The notes under the pieces are model-generated. The model ran no database searches, had not been told where the DNA came from, and saw only the letters and a list, made by a program, of their open reading frames with translations. A stretch of DNA of 44,140 bases from Clostridiales bacterium (GTDB lineage Bacteria > Bacillota > Clostridia > Christensenellales > Aristaeellaceae), in assembly GCA_015056265.1 (NCBI GenBank), contig SVGR01000007.1:1-44140 (forward strand). The letters run 5' to 3'. Of the stretch, positions 2,527 through 10,485 are shown one piece after another. The position numbers and the translations under genes were made by a program. Position 1 is the stretch's first letter; every line of letters begins with the position of its first letter.

Positions 2527-2997
2527 ATGGCCAAAAAATTGGGCATTAAGCCCATTGCTCAAAACAAAAAGGCGCGCCACGATTATTTCATCGAGGAAAG
2601 CCTGGAATGCGGCATTGAGCTGAAGGGCACGGAAGTAAAATCCATGCGCCAGGGCAAGGTGAACCTGAAGGAAAGCTACGCCATCGTAAAGGACGGGCAG
2701 GTATTCGTTCAGGGCATGCATATCAGCCCCTATGAGCAGGGAAACATCTTCAATACCGATCCCCTCCGCCCCAAGCGGCTTTTGCTCCATAAGAGCGAGA
2801 TCCGGAAGCTGGGCGCTCAGGTGCAGCGCCAGGGCTATGCCTTGGTTCCGTTGGATGTATACCTCAAGGATGGCCGCATGAAAATGAGCCTGGGCCTGTG
2901 CGTGGGTAAGCATCTCCACGATAAGCGAGCCAGCACGGCGGAGCGGGATGTGAAACGGGATATGGCCCGGATGGTGCGTTCCAATCGGGGTGAATGA
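2527..2997 (+). CDS. smpB: SsrA-binding protein SmpB
   Basis: A 156-aa small basic protein that binds tmRNA and delivers it to stalled ribosomes for trans-translation. The family pattern is intact: an N-terminal QNKKARHDYFIEE, then GIELKGTEVKSMRQGKVNLKES, the GQVFVQGMHISPY strand, and the basic C-terminal tail with HDKRA and repeated K/R that enters the mRNA channel. Length is typical (about 150-160 aa). A GGAGG site lies 7 nt before the ATG. Its partner tmRNA gene begins 229 nt downstream on the same strand, the usual Firmicutes arrangement, with a structured repeat element placed between them. Confidence 0.97.
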   Translation: MAKKLGIKPIAQNKKARHDYFIEESLECGIELKGTEVKSMRQGKVNLKESYAIVKDGQVFVQGMHISPYEQGNIFNTDPLRPKRLLLHKSEIRKLGAQVQRQGYALVPLDVYLKDGRMKMSLGLCVGKHLHDKRASTAERDVKRDMARMVRSNRGE

Positions 2998-3225: not shown

Positions 3226-3574
3226 GGGGGTGTACTGGTTTCGACGGGGATCGTCGGGGGCATGGTAAGCGAGCCGCGGACCCTGGCCGCGTAAAAACGG
3301 GGAACTTAAAATTAACTGACAACAATCAGTACGCTTTCGCTGCCTAAGGGCGGCGCGCCGGCCCTGAGTTGCCTACGGCTCAGGATCCCGGTGTCACATT
3401 AGTGGGGAACGGGGCTGCGTAAGCTTTGCCGCAAGCCCGGCATCATGAAGCTACTGAAGCTGCAAGCCTGTCAGGGGGCGTGCAGCGGAGGGAATGATAA
3501 TATCCTGACTGCGCTCGGAGAAAACTGTGAATCTGAATCTTCGGACAGGGGTTCGATTCCCCTCACCTCCACCA
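3226..3574 (+). ncRNA. ssrA: Transfer-messenger RNA (tmRNA)
   Basis: A one-piece tmRNA of 349 nt. The 5' end GGGGGTG pairs with CACCTCC at 3564-3570 (one G-U pair) to make the alanine-type acceptor stem. The discriminator A and an encoded CCA end it at 3574. The T arm GGGTTCGATTCCC and the 5' TGGTTTCGACGGGGAT motif are both present. The tag reading frame ends at about 3345 with a stop after codons for D-N-N-Q-Y-A-F-A-A, the proteolysis tag tail. The resume codon is not obvious: in frame it may be ACT rather than the common GCN, giving a tag of about ten residues. Pseudoknot-like GC stems follow the tag. smpB lies just upstream on the same strand. Confidence 0.96.
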
Positions 3575-3762: not shown

Positions 3763-4968
3763 TTATTCCACCAGGAGAGGCTGCATGGCGTTGAGCATCA
3801 TGGCTTCCACAATTTCGGGATAAGCGAAGGCAGCGGTGCCCCGGCGCAACACGCCAAAGCGTTCACCGGTACCGGAGAACACATGATTATCCCACAAGCA
3901 GCAGGGAATGCCCCGTGCTGCAGCGCCGGCCACATAATAGGCGGTGTAATCCACCCGGGCCTGCAAATTGCCGTCCTTTTCCCGGGCGCCGAATTCGCCG
4001 ATCACCACCGGGATGCCTGCAGCAATGAACTTGTTATAGATCCGGTTCATGAACAATTCGATATCCCGGGTGCTGGCCGAGGTCAGCCGATTGAAGGTAT
4101 TGGTGCCCTTTGCATCCAATGCGAAGGCATAGGGCGTATAGGCATGGATGGACACAATGATCTTATTATCCGCCGTATCTGTGGGCAGCACAAAATTCAC
4201 CAGCTGATCGGGAGACGCCGCATAGGGCGGCACCATCAGATAACGATCGGCATTTTCCCCGCCAGCGGCGCGCACCGTATCCACAAAGAGCTGATTGAGG
4301 GCATTGATCCGGGCATAGGCATCCTTGCAATCGGCATTACCGGCAGAGGGACTCCATTCAAAGCCGGTACCCTTCAGCCGGGGTTCATTCATAGATTCGA
4401 AGATCAGTTTCTGATCATAATTCCGGAACCGATCCGCCAATTGACGCCAGATGGAAGCAATATAGCGATCAGAGGTTTCGGCATATTTGGTGAGCGGATA
4501 ATAGTATTCCGGATACACATCGTGATGCGTATTGAGGATCACATACATATCCCTTTCAATGGCCCAATCCACCACCTGCTGCACCCGGGCCAGCCATTCC
4601 TCATCAATATTGAAATCCTGATCCACATGCTGATGCCAGGAGACGGGCAAGCGCAGAGTTCTGAACCCCGCCTGATGCAGCGCCTCAATCATGTTTTCCG
4701 TAGTTTTTGCCCCGCACCACATATTTTCCAGATTCATATGATTGCCCCGATAGCCATCGGAAAAAGCATCGAAGGTGTTGCCCAGATTCCACCCGGCCTT
4801 CATATCCCGGGTAAAGCGCAGCGCCTCATTATCCGGAATGGTCTTCTTCCAGACGTTGCCGATCACTGGAACCTTTATTTCCGTTTCCTGCCGGGCATGC
4901 GCCGCAGTGCAGCCCATACTCAGCGCCAAAATTAGCATCACTGCAAGCGCGATCATGCGTTTTTTCAT
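3763..4968 (-). CDS. Secreted GH5-family endoglucanase (cellulase-like)
   Basis: A 401-aa glycoside hydrolase of the GH5 TIM-barrel fold, expected to cut beta-1,4-glucans or related hemicelluloses outside the cell. The N-terminus MKKRMIALAVMLILALSMG is a signal peptide; Cys20 makes a lipoprotein conceivable, but the lipobox is poor. Family marks are GWNLGNTFDA (59-68), LRLPVSWHQH (106-114), the acid/base Glu195 in ESMNEPR, the HAY segment (275-277), and the probable nucleophile Glu325 in VVIGEFG. No cellulose-binding module or dockerin follows. The ATG at 4968 is chosen because the GGAG site lies 8 nt before it; the in-frame ATG at 4974 is only 2 nt from that site. GH5 subfamily and true substrate cannot be told from this reading. 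Confidence 0.9.
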   Translation of the reverse strand: MKKRMIALAVMLILALSMGCTAAHARQETEIKVPVIGNVWKKTIPDNEALRFTRDMKAGWNLGNTFDAFSDGYRGNHMNLENMWCGAKTTENMIEALHQAGFRTLRLPVSWHQHVDQDFNIDEEWLARVQQVVDWAIERDMYVILNTHHDVYPEYYYPLTKYAETSDRYIASIWRQLADRFRNYDQKLIFESMNEPRLKGTGFEWSPSAGNADCKDAYARINALNQLFVDTVRAAGGENADRYLMVPPYAASPDQLVNFVLPTDTADNKIIVSIHAYTPYAFALDAKGTNTFNRLTSASTRDIELFMNRIYNKFIAAGIPVVIGEFGAREKDGNLQARVDYTAYYVAGAAARGIPCCLWDNHVFSGTGERFGVLRRGTAAFAYPEIVEAMMLNAMQPLLVE

Positions 4969-5061
4969 TTTCATCGCTCCATTCAGGCTTTTTTTGAATT
5001 GTATCACATTTCCTGGAAAAAGGGAAGCCCCTGCAGCCGCCAACTTTCGACATCGTTCAAA

Positions 5062-5090
5062 TTGACTTGCATCACAAAATTGATTATAAT
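5062..5090 (+). promoter_or_regulatory. Promoter of the Ibr-like operon
   Basis: TTGACT (5062-5067) and TATAAT (5085-5090) lie exactly 17 bp apart, about 50 nt upstream of the first gene. One base from consensus at -35 and perfect at -10 suggests strong or tightly repressible expression. It diverges from the GH5 gene. Confidence 0.85.
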
Positions 5091-5141
5091 GGAGAAAGGC
5101 GTGCGCCATCATGTTATCCCCATCACAAAAGGAGCATTCAT

Positions 5142-6116
5142 GTGAAGTGCTTGATTCCAGTAAAACTGTGGCTTCACCACAAAATCCATGCCAAACACCC
5201 AGAAAAACGTCGTTTTTGCGCCAGTTACGTCAATATTTTCCATGTTTTCCTGGCCTTAGGTGTTCCCTCTCCCCTACAACTATCCAAGGCATATATGATG
5301 CGCATCCTGAAGGAAAAGGATGAGGACTGGTGGCAGCAAAATAACGGGTCTTTGGATCAGCCCTGGTTTATCCGCAAGTATTGCCTGGAAAACGGCCTGA
5401 TGCCCGCCCCTGCCGAAGAAGAAATATCCTCCGCTCCAGAGGGACATTTCCTTGCACCGGGAAGGAATGCGGATACATTCATCCCGCTGCGGCTGGAGCG
5501 AAATACTGAATATCCGCAACAAGGCCGGATCATCGCCGGCCCCGGGCCGGATACCCGGGCCTTTACAGACATCATGGAACAATTGGGCTTCCTTCCGGAA
5601 GAAGAGGGCTACAGCCGGGTCATTGACAAATATAGCGGCCCCTTATTCGACCGGGGCACGGAAACGGGCTGCCGGCTGCTGGAAATGGGCTACGGCGTGT
5701 TCACGGCAGAAGCAGCCCTGGGCAAGGCCATTTTATCCGGCAAATATACGCCGGAAAAGACCTGCTGGGTGCTGCCCGATCAGGAAGCAGAATGGCTGAT
5801 GCTGCGCTGTCCCGCCAACGCCGCCGCCTATCCTTATCTGCTGCAGGGCGGCGGCCTGCGCGCGCCAGGAGGCGTTCGTTTTCCCTTGAGCCGGGCCAGC
5901 CGGCTGCAGGACATTTTGAAAAACACCCCCTTCCATGTGGATCCCGAAGCACAACAGCGCCTGGATATGTGGCAGAAAGCGGCATTGCATGCCTCCATTT
6001 ATCAGCCCCGGCGGCATAAACAGCATCCGCCTACGGCTACTGCAACGGATATTTTTCAGACCTTGCTTCACTCCACCCCCGCTGTTCCCCTGGATTTGAC
6101 GGATGATGAACCATAA
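5142..6116 (+). CDS. Unrecognised protein leading the Ibr-like operon
   Basis: A 324-aa protein I do not recognise. The start is a GTG at 5142, 7 nt after AAAAGGAG; extending upstream in frame gives sequence with no ribosome site. The N-terminal 50 residues are basic and His-rich with a helix-forming stretch (ASYVNIFHVFLALGV). Residues around 70-100 contain EDWWQQNNGSLDQPWFIRKY. The middle part has two Gly-rich turns (IIAGPGPDTR and LLQGGGLRAPGGV). The C-terminus is Pro/His/Lys rich (RRHKQHPP). No membrane segment or cysteine pattern is evident. Its stop overlaps the SNF2-like gene by 14 nt, so it should be made together with it. The strong promoter just upstream makes it the first gene of a five-gene unit. 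Confidence 0.7.
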   Translation: MKCLIPVKLWLHHKIHAKHPEKRRFCASYVNIFHVFLALGVPSPLQLSKAYMMRILKEKDEDWWQQNNGSLDQPWFIRKYCLENGLMPAPAEEEISSAPEGHFLAPGRNADTFIPLRLERNTEYPQQGRIIAGPGPDTRAFTDIMEQLGFLPEEEGYSRVIDKYSGPLFDRGTETGCRLLEMGYGVFTAEAALGKAILSGKYTPEKTCWVLPDQEAEWLMLRCPANAAAYPYLLQGGGLRAPGGVRFPLSRASRLQDILKNTPFHVDPEAQQRLDMWQKAALHASIYQPRRHKQHPPTATATDIFQTLLHSTPAVPLDLTDDEP

Positions 6117-7419
6117 TTCCCTTCATCCTGCCCAGGTACAGGCGGTAGAAAAGCTGAAAAGGCTGCGGGTAGGCGCACTGTACTATGAGTTTCCCATTGG
6201 AAAAATCGATACTGTGCTGGCACTGGTGCGCTATCGGCTGCAGAAAAATAAGATTGACAGGGTTGTGTGGCTATGCGCACGGAGGAAATTAGAGGAACTG
6301 CACCGCAGCCTAATCCAGGAGCACGAAGACGCCGCCCCATTTATCCAGGTGCGCAGCATCGAGACGCTTTCCCACAATCTTTCCTATTTTCTTGATTTGG
6401 AACAGCAAATCAGCAGCCAAAGGACCATGCTGGTCATTGACGACGGGCTGCTGATCAAGAACCCCTCCGCCATGCGCACCCGGCGGGTGATTGCCTTGAG
6501 CAAGCTGTGCCCCTACCGGCTGCTGATTAGCCCGGTGCCCTTTACCCGGCGGGTATCGGATATGTTTTCCCAGTGGTATGCCCTGGATGAAAGAATTTTA
6601 GGCTATCACACCTATTGGGCCTTTTGCCTCAATCATCTGACCGAATCCTACCAGCCCCGGAACATGGATTATCTGGCCCGGGCCATTGAGCCCTACACCG
6701 CCCAATTGCTCAAAAGCGATTGGCAGCCCGCCGCCGACCGGAAAGAATTTATCTGGCAATTCCCCCTGCCCCCTGCCGCCATGCGGGAATACAAGCGGGT
6801 GATGGCCCGATTCATCAGCAAGGCGTTCTACGTCCCCAATGGAATCTATTGCCTGCTGCAGGCCTGTCAGCAAGTGGCCTGCGGACGGCGGATTCTGGAG
6901 GATTCGCCGCTGAAAACGGCGCCCCTGTATCCTTCGCCGGATCAGGATCCCCGGCTTTCCGCCCTGCTCCAGGTAGTAGATTATTTCCCCGGTGCGCAGT
7001 TCCTGATCCTGTGCCGATATCAGGCAGAATGCGTTTTGGTTTACGATGCCCTCACCGCCCGGTTCGGCCGGGGACACGCCTTCCTCTATCCTTTCTGCGC
7101 TGCCGATCATCAGCCCCATTTCCTTATCATGCACATCACGGCGGATGAGCGGCCCACCATTCCTCTCAAGGCCAATGTGATTGTGCATTACAGCAGCCAC
7201 TGGGATTGGCGCAAGCGGCTGGAAAAGGAAAACCAATGCCGCATCGCCATGGGCCAGGGCCAGCTTACGGTGGTCAGCCTGGCGGCTGCCGACACCATCG
7301 ATATTCATATTCTCCGCTGCATCTGGCGAAAGGAAAGCCTGATGGCCCATATGCGTGCCCAGCTGATCCAGACCATGCAGCGCAAACAATCAGGAGATAC
7401 AAATGCCCAAAATTTATGA
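6103..7419 (+). CDS. SNF2-like superfamily 2 helicase homologue with eroded ATPase motifs
   Basis: A 438-aa protein laid out like a short SNF2/SWI2 ATPase. The Walker A position reads EFPIGKID (29-36), with Ile in place of the Thr of GKT. The Walker B position reads MLVIDDG (109-115) followed by KNPSA, matching the DEAH-x-IKN pattern but with DDGL instead of DEAH. LLISPVPFTRRVSDMFSQWY (140-159) corresponds to the LTGTP motif with SPVP. Near the C-terminus, ENQCRIAMGQGQ (376-387) sits where the Q-R-x-x-RxGQ arginine-finger motif belongs, followed by TIDIHI. The fold looks kept but the nucleotide chemistry looks lost or altered, so a DNA-binding or scaffold role is plausible. No clear ribosome site precedes the ATG, so translation is probably coupled to the preceding gene. 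It overlaps the IbrA-like gene by 17 nt. Confidence 0.65.
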   Translation: MMNHNSLHPAQVQAVEKLKRLRVGALYYEFPIGKIDTVLALVRYRLQKNKIDRVVWLCARRKLEELHRSLIQEHEDAAPFIQVRSIETLSHNLSYFLDLEQQISSQRTMLVIDDGLLIKNPSAMRTRRVIALSKLCPYRLLISPVPFTRRVSDMFSQWYALDERILGYHTYWAFCLNHLTESYQPRNMDYLARAIEPYTAQLLKSDWQPAADRKEFIWQFPLPPAAMREYKRVMARFISKAFYVPNGIYCLLQACQQVACGRRILEDSPLKTAPLYPSPDQDPRLSALLQVVDYFPGAQFLILCRYQAECVLVYDALTARFGRGHAFLYPFCAADHQPHFLIMHITADERPTIPLKANVIVHYSSHWDWRKRLEKENQCRIAMGQGQLTVVSLAAADTIDIHILRCIWRKESLMAHMRAQLIQTMQRKQSGDTNAQNL

Positions 7420-8710
7420 AGAGCGCAATGTGCTGGACGCTGCCCTGGATCGGCTGCACGAACTATTCGAGCATTTCGATCATGTGTATTTTTCCGTTTC
7501 TGGGGGCAAGGATTCCAGCGTGATGGTGCAATTGGCGGACCGGGTGGCCGGGGAAATGGGCAAAACCTACGACGTGCTCTATATCGATTTTGAAGCCCAA
7601 TACGCCCGCACCATCGCCCATATTCAAGAACTGAAAACCCTGCCCCGTATCCGCACCTTCTATCACGTGGCCCTGCCGATGGCGCTGCGTAATGCGGTTT
7701 CCATGCTGCAGCCCAAATGGATTTGCTGGGATGAAAAGGCAAAGGAGCTGTGGGTGCGTCCTCTGCCCAAGGACGCCATTACCCTCAAAAACTGTCCCTT
7801 TCCCTTTTTCCGGCCGGGGGAAGAATTTGAGGATTTTATCCGAGAGTTTGCCATCTGGTATCAGCAGCAGCATCCCGGGAGGGTGGCCTGCGGCGTGGGT
7901 ATCCGGGCGGATGAAAGCCTGTTCCGCTTCCAAACCATCGCCTTCCCCACCCGCAAGGAAGAATACGCCCATCATCACTGGACCACCCGGATCCAGGATG
8001 ATCTCTACAACGTCTATCCCATCTACGACTGGAGTGTGGAGGATATCTGGGGCGCTGTCAGTCAGCTTGGGCTGATGAGCAACGAAATCTATGAGCTGAT
8101 GTACAAAAACGGCCTGAGCATTTATCAGCAGCGGCTGTGTCAGCCCTATGGGGATGATCAGCGCAATGGCCTGGATCAATTCCGCGCCCTGGAGCCGGAA
8201 ACCTGGGAAAAGGTGCTCAGCCGGGTGAACGGGGTGAACTTCGGCAATATTTATTGCCGCACCACCGCCCTTGGCAACATCAAATCCTTCAAGCCGGACG
8301 ATATGAGCTGGGAGCAGTATACTGTATTCCTGCTGGAAAGTATTGGGCTGTACAACCGGGAATTGATGCTGCACTATTACGGAAAGATCCGCAAGTTCAT
8401 CCGCTGGTATGAGAAGCAGGAGGGCATCACCATTGCCGATATTCCCGGGGAAGCAGATAAAAAGCTGGAGCAGCAGCGAAAGGCCATCAGCTGGCGCCGC
8501 ATCGCCCGGGCCATCGAAAAAAATGATTTCTACATGAAGCGGCTATCCTTTTCTCAAACCAAATCCGACGAAAAGAAATTGGAAACCTTTGTGCGCACCT
8601 GGAGCAATTTTCTCACCAGAGATACCGAAACGGAAGATAAAGATCTGCACCGTTTCATAGAAAGGCGTGAATTGGATGAACATCATTCGTCTGAATCAAA
8701 CCAGCCCTGA
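7403..8710 (+). CDS. ibrA: IbrA-like PAPS-reductase-family (DUF3440) protein
   Basis: A 435-aa member of the phosphoadenosine-phosphosulfate reductase / ATP pyrophosphatase group. The PP-loop is SGGKDS at 33-38. Other family marks are IDFEAQY, ALRNAVSMLQPKWI, GIRADES, WTTRI, the long YPIYDWSVEDIW segment, QQRLCQPYGDDQRNG and LEPETWEKVLSRVNG. These match the DUF3440 pattern of E. coli IbrA, known together with IbrB as an activator of the eib immunoglobulin-binding genes; its biochemical reaction is not established. The wider family includes DndC, which works in DNA phosphorothioation. Start at 7403 follows CAGGAGAT. The stop lies inside the next gene. Full length and motif-complete, so it is probably active. 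Confidence 0.85.
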   Translation: MPKIYEERNVLDAALDRLHELFEHFDHVYFSVSGGKDSSVMVQLADRVAGEMGKTYDVLYIDFEAQYARTIAHIQELKTLPRIRTFYHVALPMALRNAVSMLQPKWICWDEKAKELWVRPLPKDAITLKNCPFPFFRPGEEFEDFIREFAIWYQQQHPGRVACGVGIRADESLFRFQTIAFPTRKEEYAHHHWTTRIQDDLYNVYPIYDWSVEDIWGAVSQLGLMSNEIYELMYKNGLSIYQQRLCQPYGDDQRNGLDQFRALEPETWEKVLSRVNGVNFGNIYCRTTALGNIKSFKPDDMSWEQYTVFLLESIGLYNRELMLHYYGKIRKFIRWYEKQEGITIADIPGEADKKLEQQRKAISWRRIARAIEKNDFYMKRLSFSQTKSDEKKLETFVRTWSNFLTRDTETEDKDLHRFIERRELDEHHSSESNQP

Positions 8711-9032
8711 TTTCTATATGCTGATGGGCCCTGTTTTCGGCTCCCGTCAGGTAGAAAAGGATACCAAAGACCGTTTTTACGATGATCCGGGAAAGCAATG
8801 GTATCTGATTCCCGGAAAAGGCGCCGCATCCGTAAAAGACGGCGTGCTGCGCAATTTCTGGACCCGGGAGGAAAAGGACGCCCAGACGCTGATCGAAGCG
8901 ATGCTGCAGGATTATCCTGCTCTCACCGGCGTAGCGCCCCTTTGCTATCGGGATGCTTTCTATCGGGCAGGGTTCCTGACGGTATTATACCGCAAAAACT
9001 TTGTGGAGGTCAGCCGATATGAAGCCGATTGA
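8676..9032 (+). CDS. Small GNAT-like protein of the Ibr-like operon
   Basis: A 118-aa protein nested between the IbrA- and IbrB-like genes, overlapping the first by 35 nt and the second by 14 nt. The ATG at 8676 lies 10 nt after AAAGG; a GTG at 8667 is too near that site. The second half, with strands around GAASVKDGVL, a helix at EKDAQTLIEAMLQDY, and AFYRAGF followed by RKNFVEVSR, resembles the last part of a GNAT acetyltransferase fold. The acetyl-CoA-binding Q/RxxGxG/A loop is not visible, so enzyme activity is doubtful. A dedicated partner of IbrA or IbrB is the simplest reading, inferred from position alone. Confidence 0.6.
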   Translation: MNIIRLNQTSPDFYMLMGPVFGSRQVEKDTKDRFYDDPGKQWYLIPGKGAASVKDGVLRNFWTREEKDAQTLIEAMLQDYPALTGVAPLCYRDAFYRAGFLTVLYRKNFVEVSRYEAD

Positions 9033-9543
9033 TTTCCCGGTGCTTCAGGTAAAAATGGTGCCTGCAGAAAAGATAACAGCCAACGATTACAACCCCAACC
9101 GGATGGCCTCCCCGGAATTGCAGTTGCTTCGGATTTCCATTGAAGAGGACGGATACACCCAGCCCATTGTGGTCTATTACGATGAGCAGCAGGATCTGTA
9201 TCAGGTCGTAGACGGCTTTCACCGGTATCTGGTCAATGAAATGCACTTTCATCAGCCCATGCTGCCGGTAGTGGTCATTGATAAGCCCCTGGATCAGCGC
9301 ATCGCCAGCACCATCCGCCATAACCGGGCCCGGGGTACCCATCAGATCCTGGACATGTCCCAGATCGTGTGCCGGCTGCTCAATCAGGGCTGGAGCGACG
9401 ATAGAATCTGTAAATATCTAGGAATGGAATTGGATGAGGTCATCCGTCTCAAACAGATCAGCGGCCTGAAGGAGGCCTTTGCCAATCACGTTTTCTCCAA
9501 ATCCTGGGAGGAATTTGAGCATAGGATCACCGAAGAAGAGTAA
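9019..9543 (+). CDS. ibrB: IbrB-like ParB-domain protein
   Basis: A 174-aa protein with a ParB/Sulfiredoxin-type N-terminal domain. Residues 24-29 read YNPNRM, and then LRISIEEDGYTQPIVV and VVDGFHR (63-69), the last being the counterpart of the ParB GERR / DndB DGQHR loop. The second half (IRHNRARGTH, MSQIVCRLLNQGWSDDRICKYLGM, KQISGLKEAF) looks like the helix-turn-helix part of IbrB. ATG at 9019 follows GGAGG by 9 nt; an upstream TTG frame start is less likely. In E. coli, IbrA and IbrB act together as expression activators. Here it ends the operon, before a strong hairpin. DNA binding or nucleotide-dependent switching is inferred from the family. Confidence 0.85.
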   Translation: MKPIDFPVLQVKMVPAEKITANDYNPNRMASPELQLLRISIEEDGYTQPIVVYYDEQQDLYQVVDGFHRYLVNEMHFHQPMLPVVVIDKPLDQRIASTIRHNRARGTHQILDMSQIVCRLLNQGWSDDRICKYLGMELDEVIRLKQISGLKEAFANHVFSKSWEEFEHRITEEE

Positions 9544-9589
9544 TTTTTCCCACTTTTTTGCGGAAAAAACGCCTGAAATTGCATCGAAA

Positions 9590-9628
9590 AACGGGTTTTC
9601 TGCCTTGATTTTCGGCGGAAAACCCGTT
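9590..9628. terminator. Bidirectional terminator between converging genes
   Basis: AACGGGTTTTC and GAAAACCCGTT form an 11-bp stem with GGC/GCC pairing inside. The T tract is on the minus-strand side (TTTTTCG), serving the epimerase gene; it can also end the Ibr-like operon from the other side. Confidence 0.75.
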
Positions 9629-9645
9629 CTTCTGTATCGAATTGT

Positions 9646-10485
9646 TTATTCTTCCATCATCGCCGCCACCCGGCATGCCCGTTCAAAGGCTTGGGCGAAG
9701 TAATCCTCCAGGGGCATTTTTTCATACGCATCATTTTCGTGACGGCCAGGCTTACTCTGCCGCACCAGTTCAAAGGTCAGCGGCCCCCGGAAGCCGTGCC
9801 GCTTCATCCGCGCCACAATCCCCTGCCAATCACACTTGCCGTCAAAGGGCAAAAGATGCAGATCATCCTTCCAGGTGATGCCCCCTGCCGGATCGCATAC
9901 CCCCAGATTGTCATTCAGATGCGTGGCAATCAGCCGGTCACCATGCAGGGCCAGCATATCCTTTCCGTAATTATAGCAATTCTCATGGCCCGTATCCCAA
10001 CAGAATCCCACATACGGGTCGTCCCGGTACCGCTCCATCAGCGCCGCCAGGTATTCTTCCCCTTCGGTGTTTTCCAAGGCGATTTTCACCTGCAGGGCCC
10101 GGGCGCGCGCCACCACCCGATCAAAATTTTCCAGTCCAAAGACCGTGGGCGTATGCTTATCAAAGCCAATGATGGTATGCGCCACCATGATGGGCACCTG
10201 CAGCCGATGACAAAGTTCCAGACAGTCCAGCAATTCCTGCACCGCATCCTGGGTCTTTTCCGTCCTCTCCCACATATCCGCCGCCAGCAGATGGGGGGCA
10301 TGGATGGATTGGAATAACATGCCCTCCCGCCGGGCGGCCTCTGCCAAGGGCGAAAGATCCACTCCCCGCTCCCACCGAGTGAAAAAGCCGTCAAAACCAG
10401 CCTTTTTCAGCATGGTCAGCTGCTCCGTCAGCGCCGGACCGTATTGGGAACTCAGGCTCATACACAGAATCATTCTTTTCATCAT
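9646..10485 (-). CDS. Sugar phosphate isomerase/epimerase (xylose-isomerase-like TIM barrel)
   Basis: A 279-aa protein of the AP-endonuclease-2 / xylose isomerase-like TIM barrel family. The metal-site residues appear in order: SIHAPH, HTIIGFDKH, ALENTEGE, FCWDTGHEN, THLNDNLG and FELV near the end. Such proteins usually epimerise or isomerise sugars or inositol derivatives in the cytoplasm. Start may be 10485 or 10482 (two adjacent ATGs after GAGGAT). It lies 7 nt after the DUF4129 protein gene, so it is the last gene of the MoxR operon although nothing links it functionally. Substrate unknown. Confidence 0.8.
   Translation of the reverse strand: MMKRMILCMSLSSQYGPALTEQLTMLKKAGFDGFFTRWERGVDLSPLAEAARREGMLFQSIHAPHLLAADMWERTEKTQDAVQELLDCLELCHRLQVPIMVAHTIIGFDKHTPTVFGLENFDRVVARARALQVKIALENTEGEEYLAALMERYRDDPYVGFCWDTGHENCYNYGKDMLALHGDRLIATHLNDNLGVCDPAGGITWKDDLHLLPFDGKCDWQGIVARMKRHGFRGPLTFELVRQSKPGRHENDAYEKMPLEDYFAQAFERACRVAAMMEE

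Follow-up and report, generated by a model that had tools for sequence, protein, structure and literature searches.

The window analysed here is a stretch of 44,140 nucleotides of a Clostridiales bacterium (contig SVGR01000007.1, forward strand). It carries an operon of five open reading frames on the + strand (positions 5142–9543), which encode, in this order, a protein with candidate DNA-recognition domains (gene 1), an SNF2-type protein (gene 2), IbrA (gene 3), a GNAT-type protein (gene 4) and IbrB (gene 5). The carrier contig (C54) belongs to an assembly of 2.36 Mb that is 78% complete with 5% contamination. The features of the operon and its upstream flank are collected in Table 1.

An earlier reading made from the letters alone, referred to below as the sequence-only reading, had described five overlapping genes behind a near-consensus promoter. 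Every junction overlaps, by 14, 17, 35 and 14 nucleotides, in exact agreement with the coordinates of the reading frames. The promoter-like site TTGACT-17-TATAAT has 11 of 12 consensus matches and is the sole site of this level within positions 4900–9900, where four promoter-like sites are found in total versus a mean of 3.9 in shuffled sequences. The naming of genes 3 and 5 as IbrA (similar to 3′-phosphoadenosine-5′-phosphosulfate (PAPS) reductases) and IbrB (ParB-like) is borne out, as both proteins pass the Pfam cut-offs. For genes 1 and 4 no match below E 0.05 was found in four family libraries.

Table 1. Features of the five-gene operon and its upstream flank (positions in the window)
Feature	Position	Strand	Remarks
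Promoter-like site TTGACT-N17-TATAAT	5062..5090	+	11/12 consensus matches, upstream of operon
AGGAG	5130..5134	+	7 nucleotides 5′ of the gene 1 GTG start; read from the sequence
Gene 1 (324 residues)	5142..6116	+	GTG start at 5142
Gene 1, first α/β domain (residues 107–191)	5460..5714	+	
Gene 1, second α/β domain (residues 206–272)	5757..5957	+	Candidate DNA-recognition domain of UvsW/XPB helicase type
Gene 2 (438 residues), pseudo-SNF2	6103..7419	+	phrog_62, E 4.7e-21; alignment with intact copies
Gene 2, degenerate motif I	6187..6216	+	EFPIGKIDTV; intact type EMGTGKTRTA
Gene 2, degenerate motif II	6433..6459	+	VIDDGLLIK; intact type IVDESNLVK
Gene 3, IbrA (435 residues)	7403..8710	+	PAPS_reduct (PP-loop) domain and DUF3440
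IbrA, intact PP-loop SVSGGKDSS	7493..7519	+	Conserved among homologues
IbrA, Cys108	7724..7726	+	Cys in 189/234 homologues
IbrA, Cys246, RLCQPYGDDQRNG motif	8138..8140	+	Cys in 179/235 homologues
Gene 4 (118 residues), pseudo-GNAT	8676..9032	+	Predicted GNAT fold, acetyl-CoA loop motif lost
Gene 5, IbrB (174 residues)	9019..9543	+	ParB-type NTP-binding fold; ParB_N; phrog_2159
IbrB, Box II DGFHR	9211..9225	+	Conserved among homologues
smpB	2527..2997		
tmRNA gene	3226..3574		Tag DNNQYAFAA
GH5 cellulase gene	3763..5112	-	Between tmRNA gene and operon; Pfam Cellulase, E 3.6e-66

Motif loss in the SNF2-type and GNAT-type proteins

The PHROG DNA helicase family phrog_62 is the one significant match of gene 2, and no Pfam family recognises it. 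The protein shares 26–31% identity with seven intact viral or plasmid SNF2 proteins. Compared to intact copies, motifs I, II and III are degenerate (GTGKT to PIGKI, DES to DDG and GTP to PVP, respectively), and motifs V and VI are likewise lost. Walker A and Walker B are both lost in all eight complete chromosomal five-gene copies, including that of the window, and both are present in 91 of 92 distinct viral SNF2 copies. Identical or near-identical sequences were removed before this count, as before the conservation and tree analyses. Walker A was scored leniently as GK[ST] and Walker B by a DE pattern; a stricter Walker A pattern missed five viral rows. The sole viral exception (L136) is a different SNF2 protein of 824 residues. 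The eight complete copies exclude one that is cut at a contig edge (L026), and two 1156-residue SNF2 proteins of Clostridia (L033 and L034) are distant from IbrA and fall outside the module.

The loss is concentrated in the catalytic motifs. Among SNF2 proteins of up to 600 residues, 23 alignment columns conserved at 85% or more in 88 viral sequences are lost in the eight dead copies. By our assignment, 22 of these fall within or next to motifs I, Ia, II, III, V and VI, the exception being L210. A further 31 columns are conserved at 85% or more in both the dead and the viral set. Judged by its motifs, the SNF2 protein of the window is a catalytically dead pseudoenzyme, and the window copy is thus not an intact active module.

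Gene 2 is still maintained as a protein under purifying selection. The ratio of nonsynonymous to synonymous substitution rates (dN/dS) is 0.26, 0.16 and 0.12 in the three computed pairs, values that are rough because dS amounts to 1.6–3.0. In all eight comparisons, codon position 3 differs most and position 2 least. Furthermore, every frame of the five genes is open in eight species, and dN/dS lies below 0.31 for genes 1–4 in every pair with an estimable dS (a single pair in the case of gene 1).

The AlphaFold2 model of gene 4 has a predicted local distance difference test score (pLDDT) of 95.9. The 50 Foldseek matches listed are GNAT or GNAT-related folds by our classing; the best has E 1.1e-3 with a probability of 1.00, and none of those listed reaches E 0.001. 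The acetyl-CoA loop pattern R/QxxGxG/A has no match in gene 4 of the window or in any of the 72 chromosomal gene-4 hits. It is present in 9 of 29 viral hits, some of which are copies of one contig, and it missed at least one loop (L201). With dN/dS values of 0.25–0.30 in three pairs, gene 4 is also under purifying selection. It appears to be a pseudoenzyme with a predicted GNAT fold that lacks the acetyl-CoA loop motif. The labels SNF2-like and GNAT-like of the sequence-only reading accordingly hold for ancestry and fold but not for active enzymes, the catalytic and loop motifs being lost.

IbrA, IbrB and gene 1

IbrA scores 94.2 bits with DUF3440 (cut-off 25) and 46.4 bits with PAPS_reduct (cut-off 22.5). 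Its PP-loop residues Ser33, Gly35, Lys36, Asp37 and Ser38 are each conserved in at least 95% of 235 homologues, as are Arg168, Glu171, Ser172 and Arg175. PP-loop enzymes convert ATP to AMP and pyrophosphate while activating their substrate. Since PP-loop enzymes do so, IbrA should, by analogy, hydrolyse ATP to AMP and pyrophosphate during substrate activation. No cysteine is near-invariant in the homologue alignment. Cys108 and Cys246 are mostly kept or replaced jointly (CC 174, PA 26, CS 15 and AS 9).

The PAPS_reduct score would be compatible with a true PAPS reductase of sulfate assimilation, whose neighbours in the operon would then be unrelated. In papers on phages, PAPS-reductase-like genes are counted among the genes of host metabolism or the auxiliary metabolic genes (PMC11318856, PMC10434257). 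However, the NCBIfam PAPS reductase models reach only 14.2–22.8 bits with IbrA, far under their cut-offs of 154–254. The cysteines are variable, and IbrB, which is needless for sulfate assimilation, is a constant partner (present at each of the 39 fully flanked viral loci, see below). On these three grounds the explanation was rejected as highly improbable.

In IbrB, ParB_N is the sole Pfam family above its cut-off over the 174 residues (30.1 bits, cut-off 26.3), and phrog_2159 matches with E 4.5e-68. Within Box II, Asp65, Gly66, His68 and Arg69 occur at a rounded frequency of 1.00 in 220 homologues and Phe67 at 0.90. Asn102, Ala104, Arg105, Gly106 and His108 are nearly invariant in the same set. 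Box II presumably resembles the corresponding part of SerK and sulfiredoxin. These two proteins employ a ParB-type fold as an ATP-binding module (PMC12704722). By eye, residues ~105–150 resemble a ParB-type helix-turn-helix, and HTH_23 matches weakly (E 0.07) in the IbrB part of an IbrB-IbrA fusion (L242). No helix-turn-helix family of Pfam matches any of the five window proteins at E 1 or better. Unlike the ParB of ParABS systems, IbrB has no ParA partner among the five operon proteins or ten scanned neighbours.

The sequence-only reading had pointed to a likeness with DNA phosphorothioation. This likeness stands at the superfamily level, since the Dnd/Ssp systems (DndC/SspD, DndB) also combine a PP-loop enzyme, a ParB-superfamily protein and DNA-acting ATPases. 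A closer link is not supported. PADLOC DndC models match IbrA with E 1.2e-4 and 2.5e-4 and cover 63–65 residues, so that IbrA does not fall into the DndC family. The only PADLOC match of IbrB is a type II methyltransferase model, and the best DndD score is 19 bits versus a cut-off of 245.85 in a genome that is only 78% complete.

Gene 1 consists of a helical N-terminus followed by two small α/β domains and probably holds predicted helicase-type DNA-recognition domains. Structural comparison with VIA-align gave matches to UvsW/XPB domains. In Foldseek searches against the PDB the best E is 0.11, and XPB chains appear with probabilities of 0.51, 0.28 and 0.11. The best match among viral models is an uncharacterised phage protein (E 7.5e-4); a helicase is found at E 0.018, and helicase as well as HepA-related models are among the structural matches. 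Viral homologues have a Cys-rich N-terminus and a GSEKQVAWA segment, both of which are absent from the window copy of gene 1 and from one further copy (G002).

Other comparisons gave no such support. For residues 107–191 the top rows of VIA-align are YciH/eIF1, not a helicase domain. The hhalign comparison of gene 1 with seven UvsW N-termini gave a probability of 2.5% and P 0.018, though in the register of the structural match, and counts against these domains. Neither HARP, XPB_DRD nor any other Pfam domain matches convincingly in gene 1 of the window and four relatives, and XPB_DRD (PF18458) was found in none of 199 genomes of the phylum. A kinship to SMARCAL1/HARP is presumed, with no model match in its favour. 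The operon also differs from UvsW/XPB/SMARCAL1-type helicases in that the recognition part and the motor are separate genes and the motor is dead.

In one viral locus (L252, 5265–7358) an SNF2 gene contains a gene-1-like stretch (E 2e-4) ahead of its motor part, which points to gene 1 as an accessory domain of helicases. The gene is located directly after an SNF2-IbrA-IbrB cassette, as a separate gene. When profiles of gene 1 were compared with solved chains, the C-terminal tail and the viral N-terminal region showed weak similarity to AcrIIA11 (E 0.034, then 0.012) and AcrIF23 (E 0.1). This was not used as evidence; the anti-CRISPR similarity perhaps reflects small modules shared by mobile-element proteins.

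Recurrence, reduced forms and phylogeny

Profiles grown from the window proteins were used to scan fetched loci, namely the best 80 of 329 chromosomal loci, the best 80 of at least 515 viral IbrA loci and the best 80 of 167 viral SNF2 loci. As only the best-scoring loci were scanned, the proportions given here lean to window-like proteins. Loci with short flanks are excluded wherever full flanks are stated.

The search with SNF2 yielded 77 new viral loci. In 75 of these IbrA and IbrB lie within 6 kb on the same strand; gene 1 is present in 60 and gene 4, at the cut-off applied, in 12. The search with IbrA yielded 79 new viral loci, 39 of them with full flanks. All 39 contain IbrB, 18 a helicase of the gene-2 type (upstream in 15 and downstream of IbrB in three), seven gene 1 and five gene 4. 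On a Paenibacillus larvae plasmid the order is gene 1, helicase, IbrA, GNAT and IbrB, the GNAT being recognised only weakly. Among the best 80 chromosomal loci of Clostridia, the five-gene set is present in seven (genes 4 and 5 being fused in L025), plus one that is cut at a contig edge. IbrA-gene4-IbrB without detected genes 1 and 2 occurs in 64 (37 with full flanks).

The remaining eight chromosomal IbrA genes (L033, L034, L039, L044, L045, L077, L092 and L094) have no recognised adjoining gene 4 or IbrB; six of these loci were inspected closely. The assemblies of L039 and L077 each also hold an IbrA-gene4-IbrB operon (L063 and L088, respectively), which is why the lone genes may be paralogues of the operon copies.

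An Escherichia coli plasmid and an E. coli phage carry the IbrA-IbrB pair alone. The E. coli genes belong to the same two families as those of the window, in the same order and overlapping, but lack helicase, gene 1 and GNAT, whereas the window has five genes with two apparent pseudoenzymes. Haloarchaeal plasmids carry the pair as well. In one (L016, 6974–10170) a gene annotated as GNAT comes next and then a second gene with a PAPS reductase family annotation; in another (L017, 6989–9809) it is followed by a second PAPS-reductase-like gene with a weak hit of the IbrA profile (E 7e-5). On a Streptomyces sp. plasmid (L021) a gene-4-like protein is encoded downstream of IbrA-IbrB, an uncharacterised gene of 1.45 kb upstream overlaps IbrA, and cas genes of a type I-E CRISPR system adjoin the set. 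IbrA- and IbrB-like proteins have been described in the Heimdallarchaeal virus HeimV2, where they are nearest to proteins of Firmicutes phages and elements (PMC8813620).

Modules of the operon also occur fused in single reading frames: IbrB-IbrA (L242), IbrA-GNAT (L012, a contig also present as L191), SNF2-GNAT with an intact loop (L201) and gene4-IbrB (L025). Pfam detects each of the two partners in L201, L012 and L242; the ParB_N score of L242 falls just under the cut-off (25.2 versus 26.3). Such fusions are evidence, short of proof, of a physical or functional partnership. A ParB fold linked to a domain of acetyltransferase type, the arrangement of L025, is described in PMC12704722, whose main text contains none of the terms phosphoadenosine, PAPS and Ibr.

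The operon is not a chance arrangement, as its gene order is found again in viral contigs, on a plasmid and in other Clostridia. The five genes are not obligatory, because three-gene loci occur and many IbrA-IbrB pairs are found without the other genes. The five-gene set is a recurrent, non-obligatory form. The complete module of the sequence-only reading survives as a recurrent set with fusions but not as a complete one, since reduced sets are common and the motor is dead. The survey of neighbourhoods that it had proposed gave a divided result: the order is conserved elsewhere, but IbrA and IbrB also occur without the other three genes, so that half of what had been named as speaking against a module was found.

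Around the viral copies, integrases, repressors, endolysins and RecT are among the 143 proteins scanned (of 148 listed). Among 129 neighbours of chromosomal copies only two match a phage integrase family, and the families shown are mostly housekeeping; the family tables hold the 25 commonest families. These 129 proteins stem from 21 loci (55 of 55 listed at eight five-gene loci and 74 of 93 at three-gene loci), with L038, L054 and L073 left aside. The scanned flanks in the window are ordinary as well and comprise a sigma factor, SmpB, tmRNA, the GH5 cellulase, a TIM-barrel protein, MoxR, DUF58, GNAT and aldolase. None of ten flanking proteins matches a phage family, and two of the ten lack a Pfam match at E 1e-5.

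tmRNA genes commonly serve as integration sites. As the operon is only ~1.5 kb from the tmRNA gene, insertion at this site was considered. It was dropped because the ten scanned neighbours include no integrase and housekeeping genes predominate around the other chromosomal copies scanned; no search for att repeats was made.

The lost motor and GNAT motifs, the intact homologues in viral contigs and the two integrase-family matches could be taken as signs of a functionless, decaying prophage remnant. Against this, the frames are open in eight species, and dN/dS is below 0.31 for genes 1–4. Furthermore, identity between the window and the seven other five-gene copies is 70–81% for IbrA and 71–81% for IbrB. 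A remnant of this kind is hardly credible and was rejected.

In a FastTree phylogeny of 204 IbrA proteins (midpoint-rooted, with long viral branches), the nine dead-motor rows (the window, seven complete loci and the edge-cut L026) form one group with a support of 99. Close to it, 57 chromosomal rows, for the most part three-gene operons, group together (support 99). The node joining the two groups has a support of 93 and takes in a single viral row (L105); two further viral rows are located just outside. All of these, together with viral five-gene copies, fall within a group of 90 rows (support 99). The tree would most simply be read as capture from a mobile element, after which one line lost the activity of the motor and the other lost genes 1 and 2. 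There may have been more than one capture.

IbrA is patchily distributed. In the family it is found at E <1e-200 in eight of 200 genomes, window included, and at E 0.001 in 15 of 200. Seven of 28 genomes of another genus and four of 391 in the class (the window again among these four) have it at E 1e-100 or better. Gene 1 was detected in two of 60 relatives, one of which is the window.

Proposed function and alternatives

The five products may form one multi-subunit DNA-acting complex of phage or plasmid origin that was captured by the chromosome of gut Clostridia. In the phage form, gene 1 with its UvsW/XPB-like domains and the SNF2 motor of gene 2 would bring or remodel branched DNA. Gene 4, whose GNAT fold is fused elsewhere to SNF2, IbrA or IbrB, would bridge the parts. 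IbrA, as a PP-loop ATP pyrophosphatase, would perform an ATP-dependent adenylation of nucleic acid, possibly followed by sulfur transfer, and IbrB would be its NTP-binding partner or switch. Nucleic acid is the expected substrate of IbrA because its partners in the phage form are a motor, probable DNA-recognition domains and a ParB-fold protein. A ParB-fold/acetyltransferase fusion binds GTP, and a DndB-like protein binds ATP/GTP (PMC12704722).

In the lineage of the window, motor and GNAT would now be pseudoenzymes that are retained for DNA binding or as a scaffold. The catalytic or nucleotide-binding motifs persist in IbrA and IbrB, which would be the working core, because the motor protein is kept although its motifs are lost. 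Taken as a whole, a captured phage or plasmid DNA-acting complex with IbrA/IbrB as remaining core is a tentative explanation, with a chance of being right that falls a little short of even. The DNA-modification idea of the sequence-only reading is plausible for this operon. Its specific form would be a hitherto undescribed five-subunit nucleic-acid modifier of phages and plasmids, in which the PP-loop enzyme IbrA and its NTP-binding partner IbrB modify DNA offered by a UvsW/XPB-like remodelling helicase, and whose captured Clostridia version uses motor and acetyltransferase structurally and acts on the cell's own nucleic acids. This is possible but doubtful.

Alternatively, IbrA and IbrB could be co-activators of gene expression, with the SNF2-type, DNA-recognition and GNAT-type subunits tuning access to promoters or RNA polymerase. 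E. coli IbrAB reportedly activate prophage eib genes, the only IbrAB phenotype known to us. A role in gene control would also fit the possible C-terminal helix-turn-helix of IbrB and the ordinary genes that mostly surround the chromosomal copies, and ParB-fold proteins can regulate transcription (PMC12704722). The PP-loop, on the other hand, is complete in nearly all 235 IbrA homologues, which is unexpected for a pure regulator, and the window proteins gave no helix-turn-helix match in Pfam. Gene control is rather unlikely as the full explanation.

The patchy presence of IbrA across family, genus and class would suit a defence or conflict system against phages or plasmids in which IbrA and IbrB mark or destroy nucleic acid or nucleotides. 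ParB-superfamily and PP-loop proteins are found in known defence systems (PMC10853773, PMC12839542). The copies with an intact motor, however, are found in predicted viral contigs (91 distinct) and on a plasmid. PADLOC (2023) detects no system beyond short partial matches (E 7.6e-5 or worse), no effector nuclease could be recognised among the five proteins in the four library scans, and the surroundings of the chromosomal copies are largely housekeeping. A defence system is thus quite unlikely.

In the full-text literature, outside of which lie most subscription papers and supplements, no description of the five-gene module was recognised. New here are the dead SNF2, the GNAT without loop, the candidate DNA-recognition domains of gene 1 and the single dead-motor IbrA group.

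IbrA-like phage proteins are often annotated as PAPS reductases, i.e. as helpers of sulfur metabolism. For the IbrA family this annotation is probably misleading, because IbrA is linked through fusions and shared operons with a DNA motor and with a ParB-type protein. The copies found form a natural series, from five genes with an intact motor (viral) via five genes with a dead motor and three genes (both chromosomal) to two genes (E. coli plasmid and phage). This series shows which parts are dispensable and opens the unexplained biochemistry of IbrAB to direct tests. With its catalytic motifs gone and the protein retained, the motor offers a clean example of pseudoenzyme capture.

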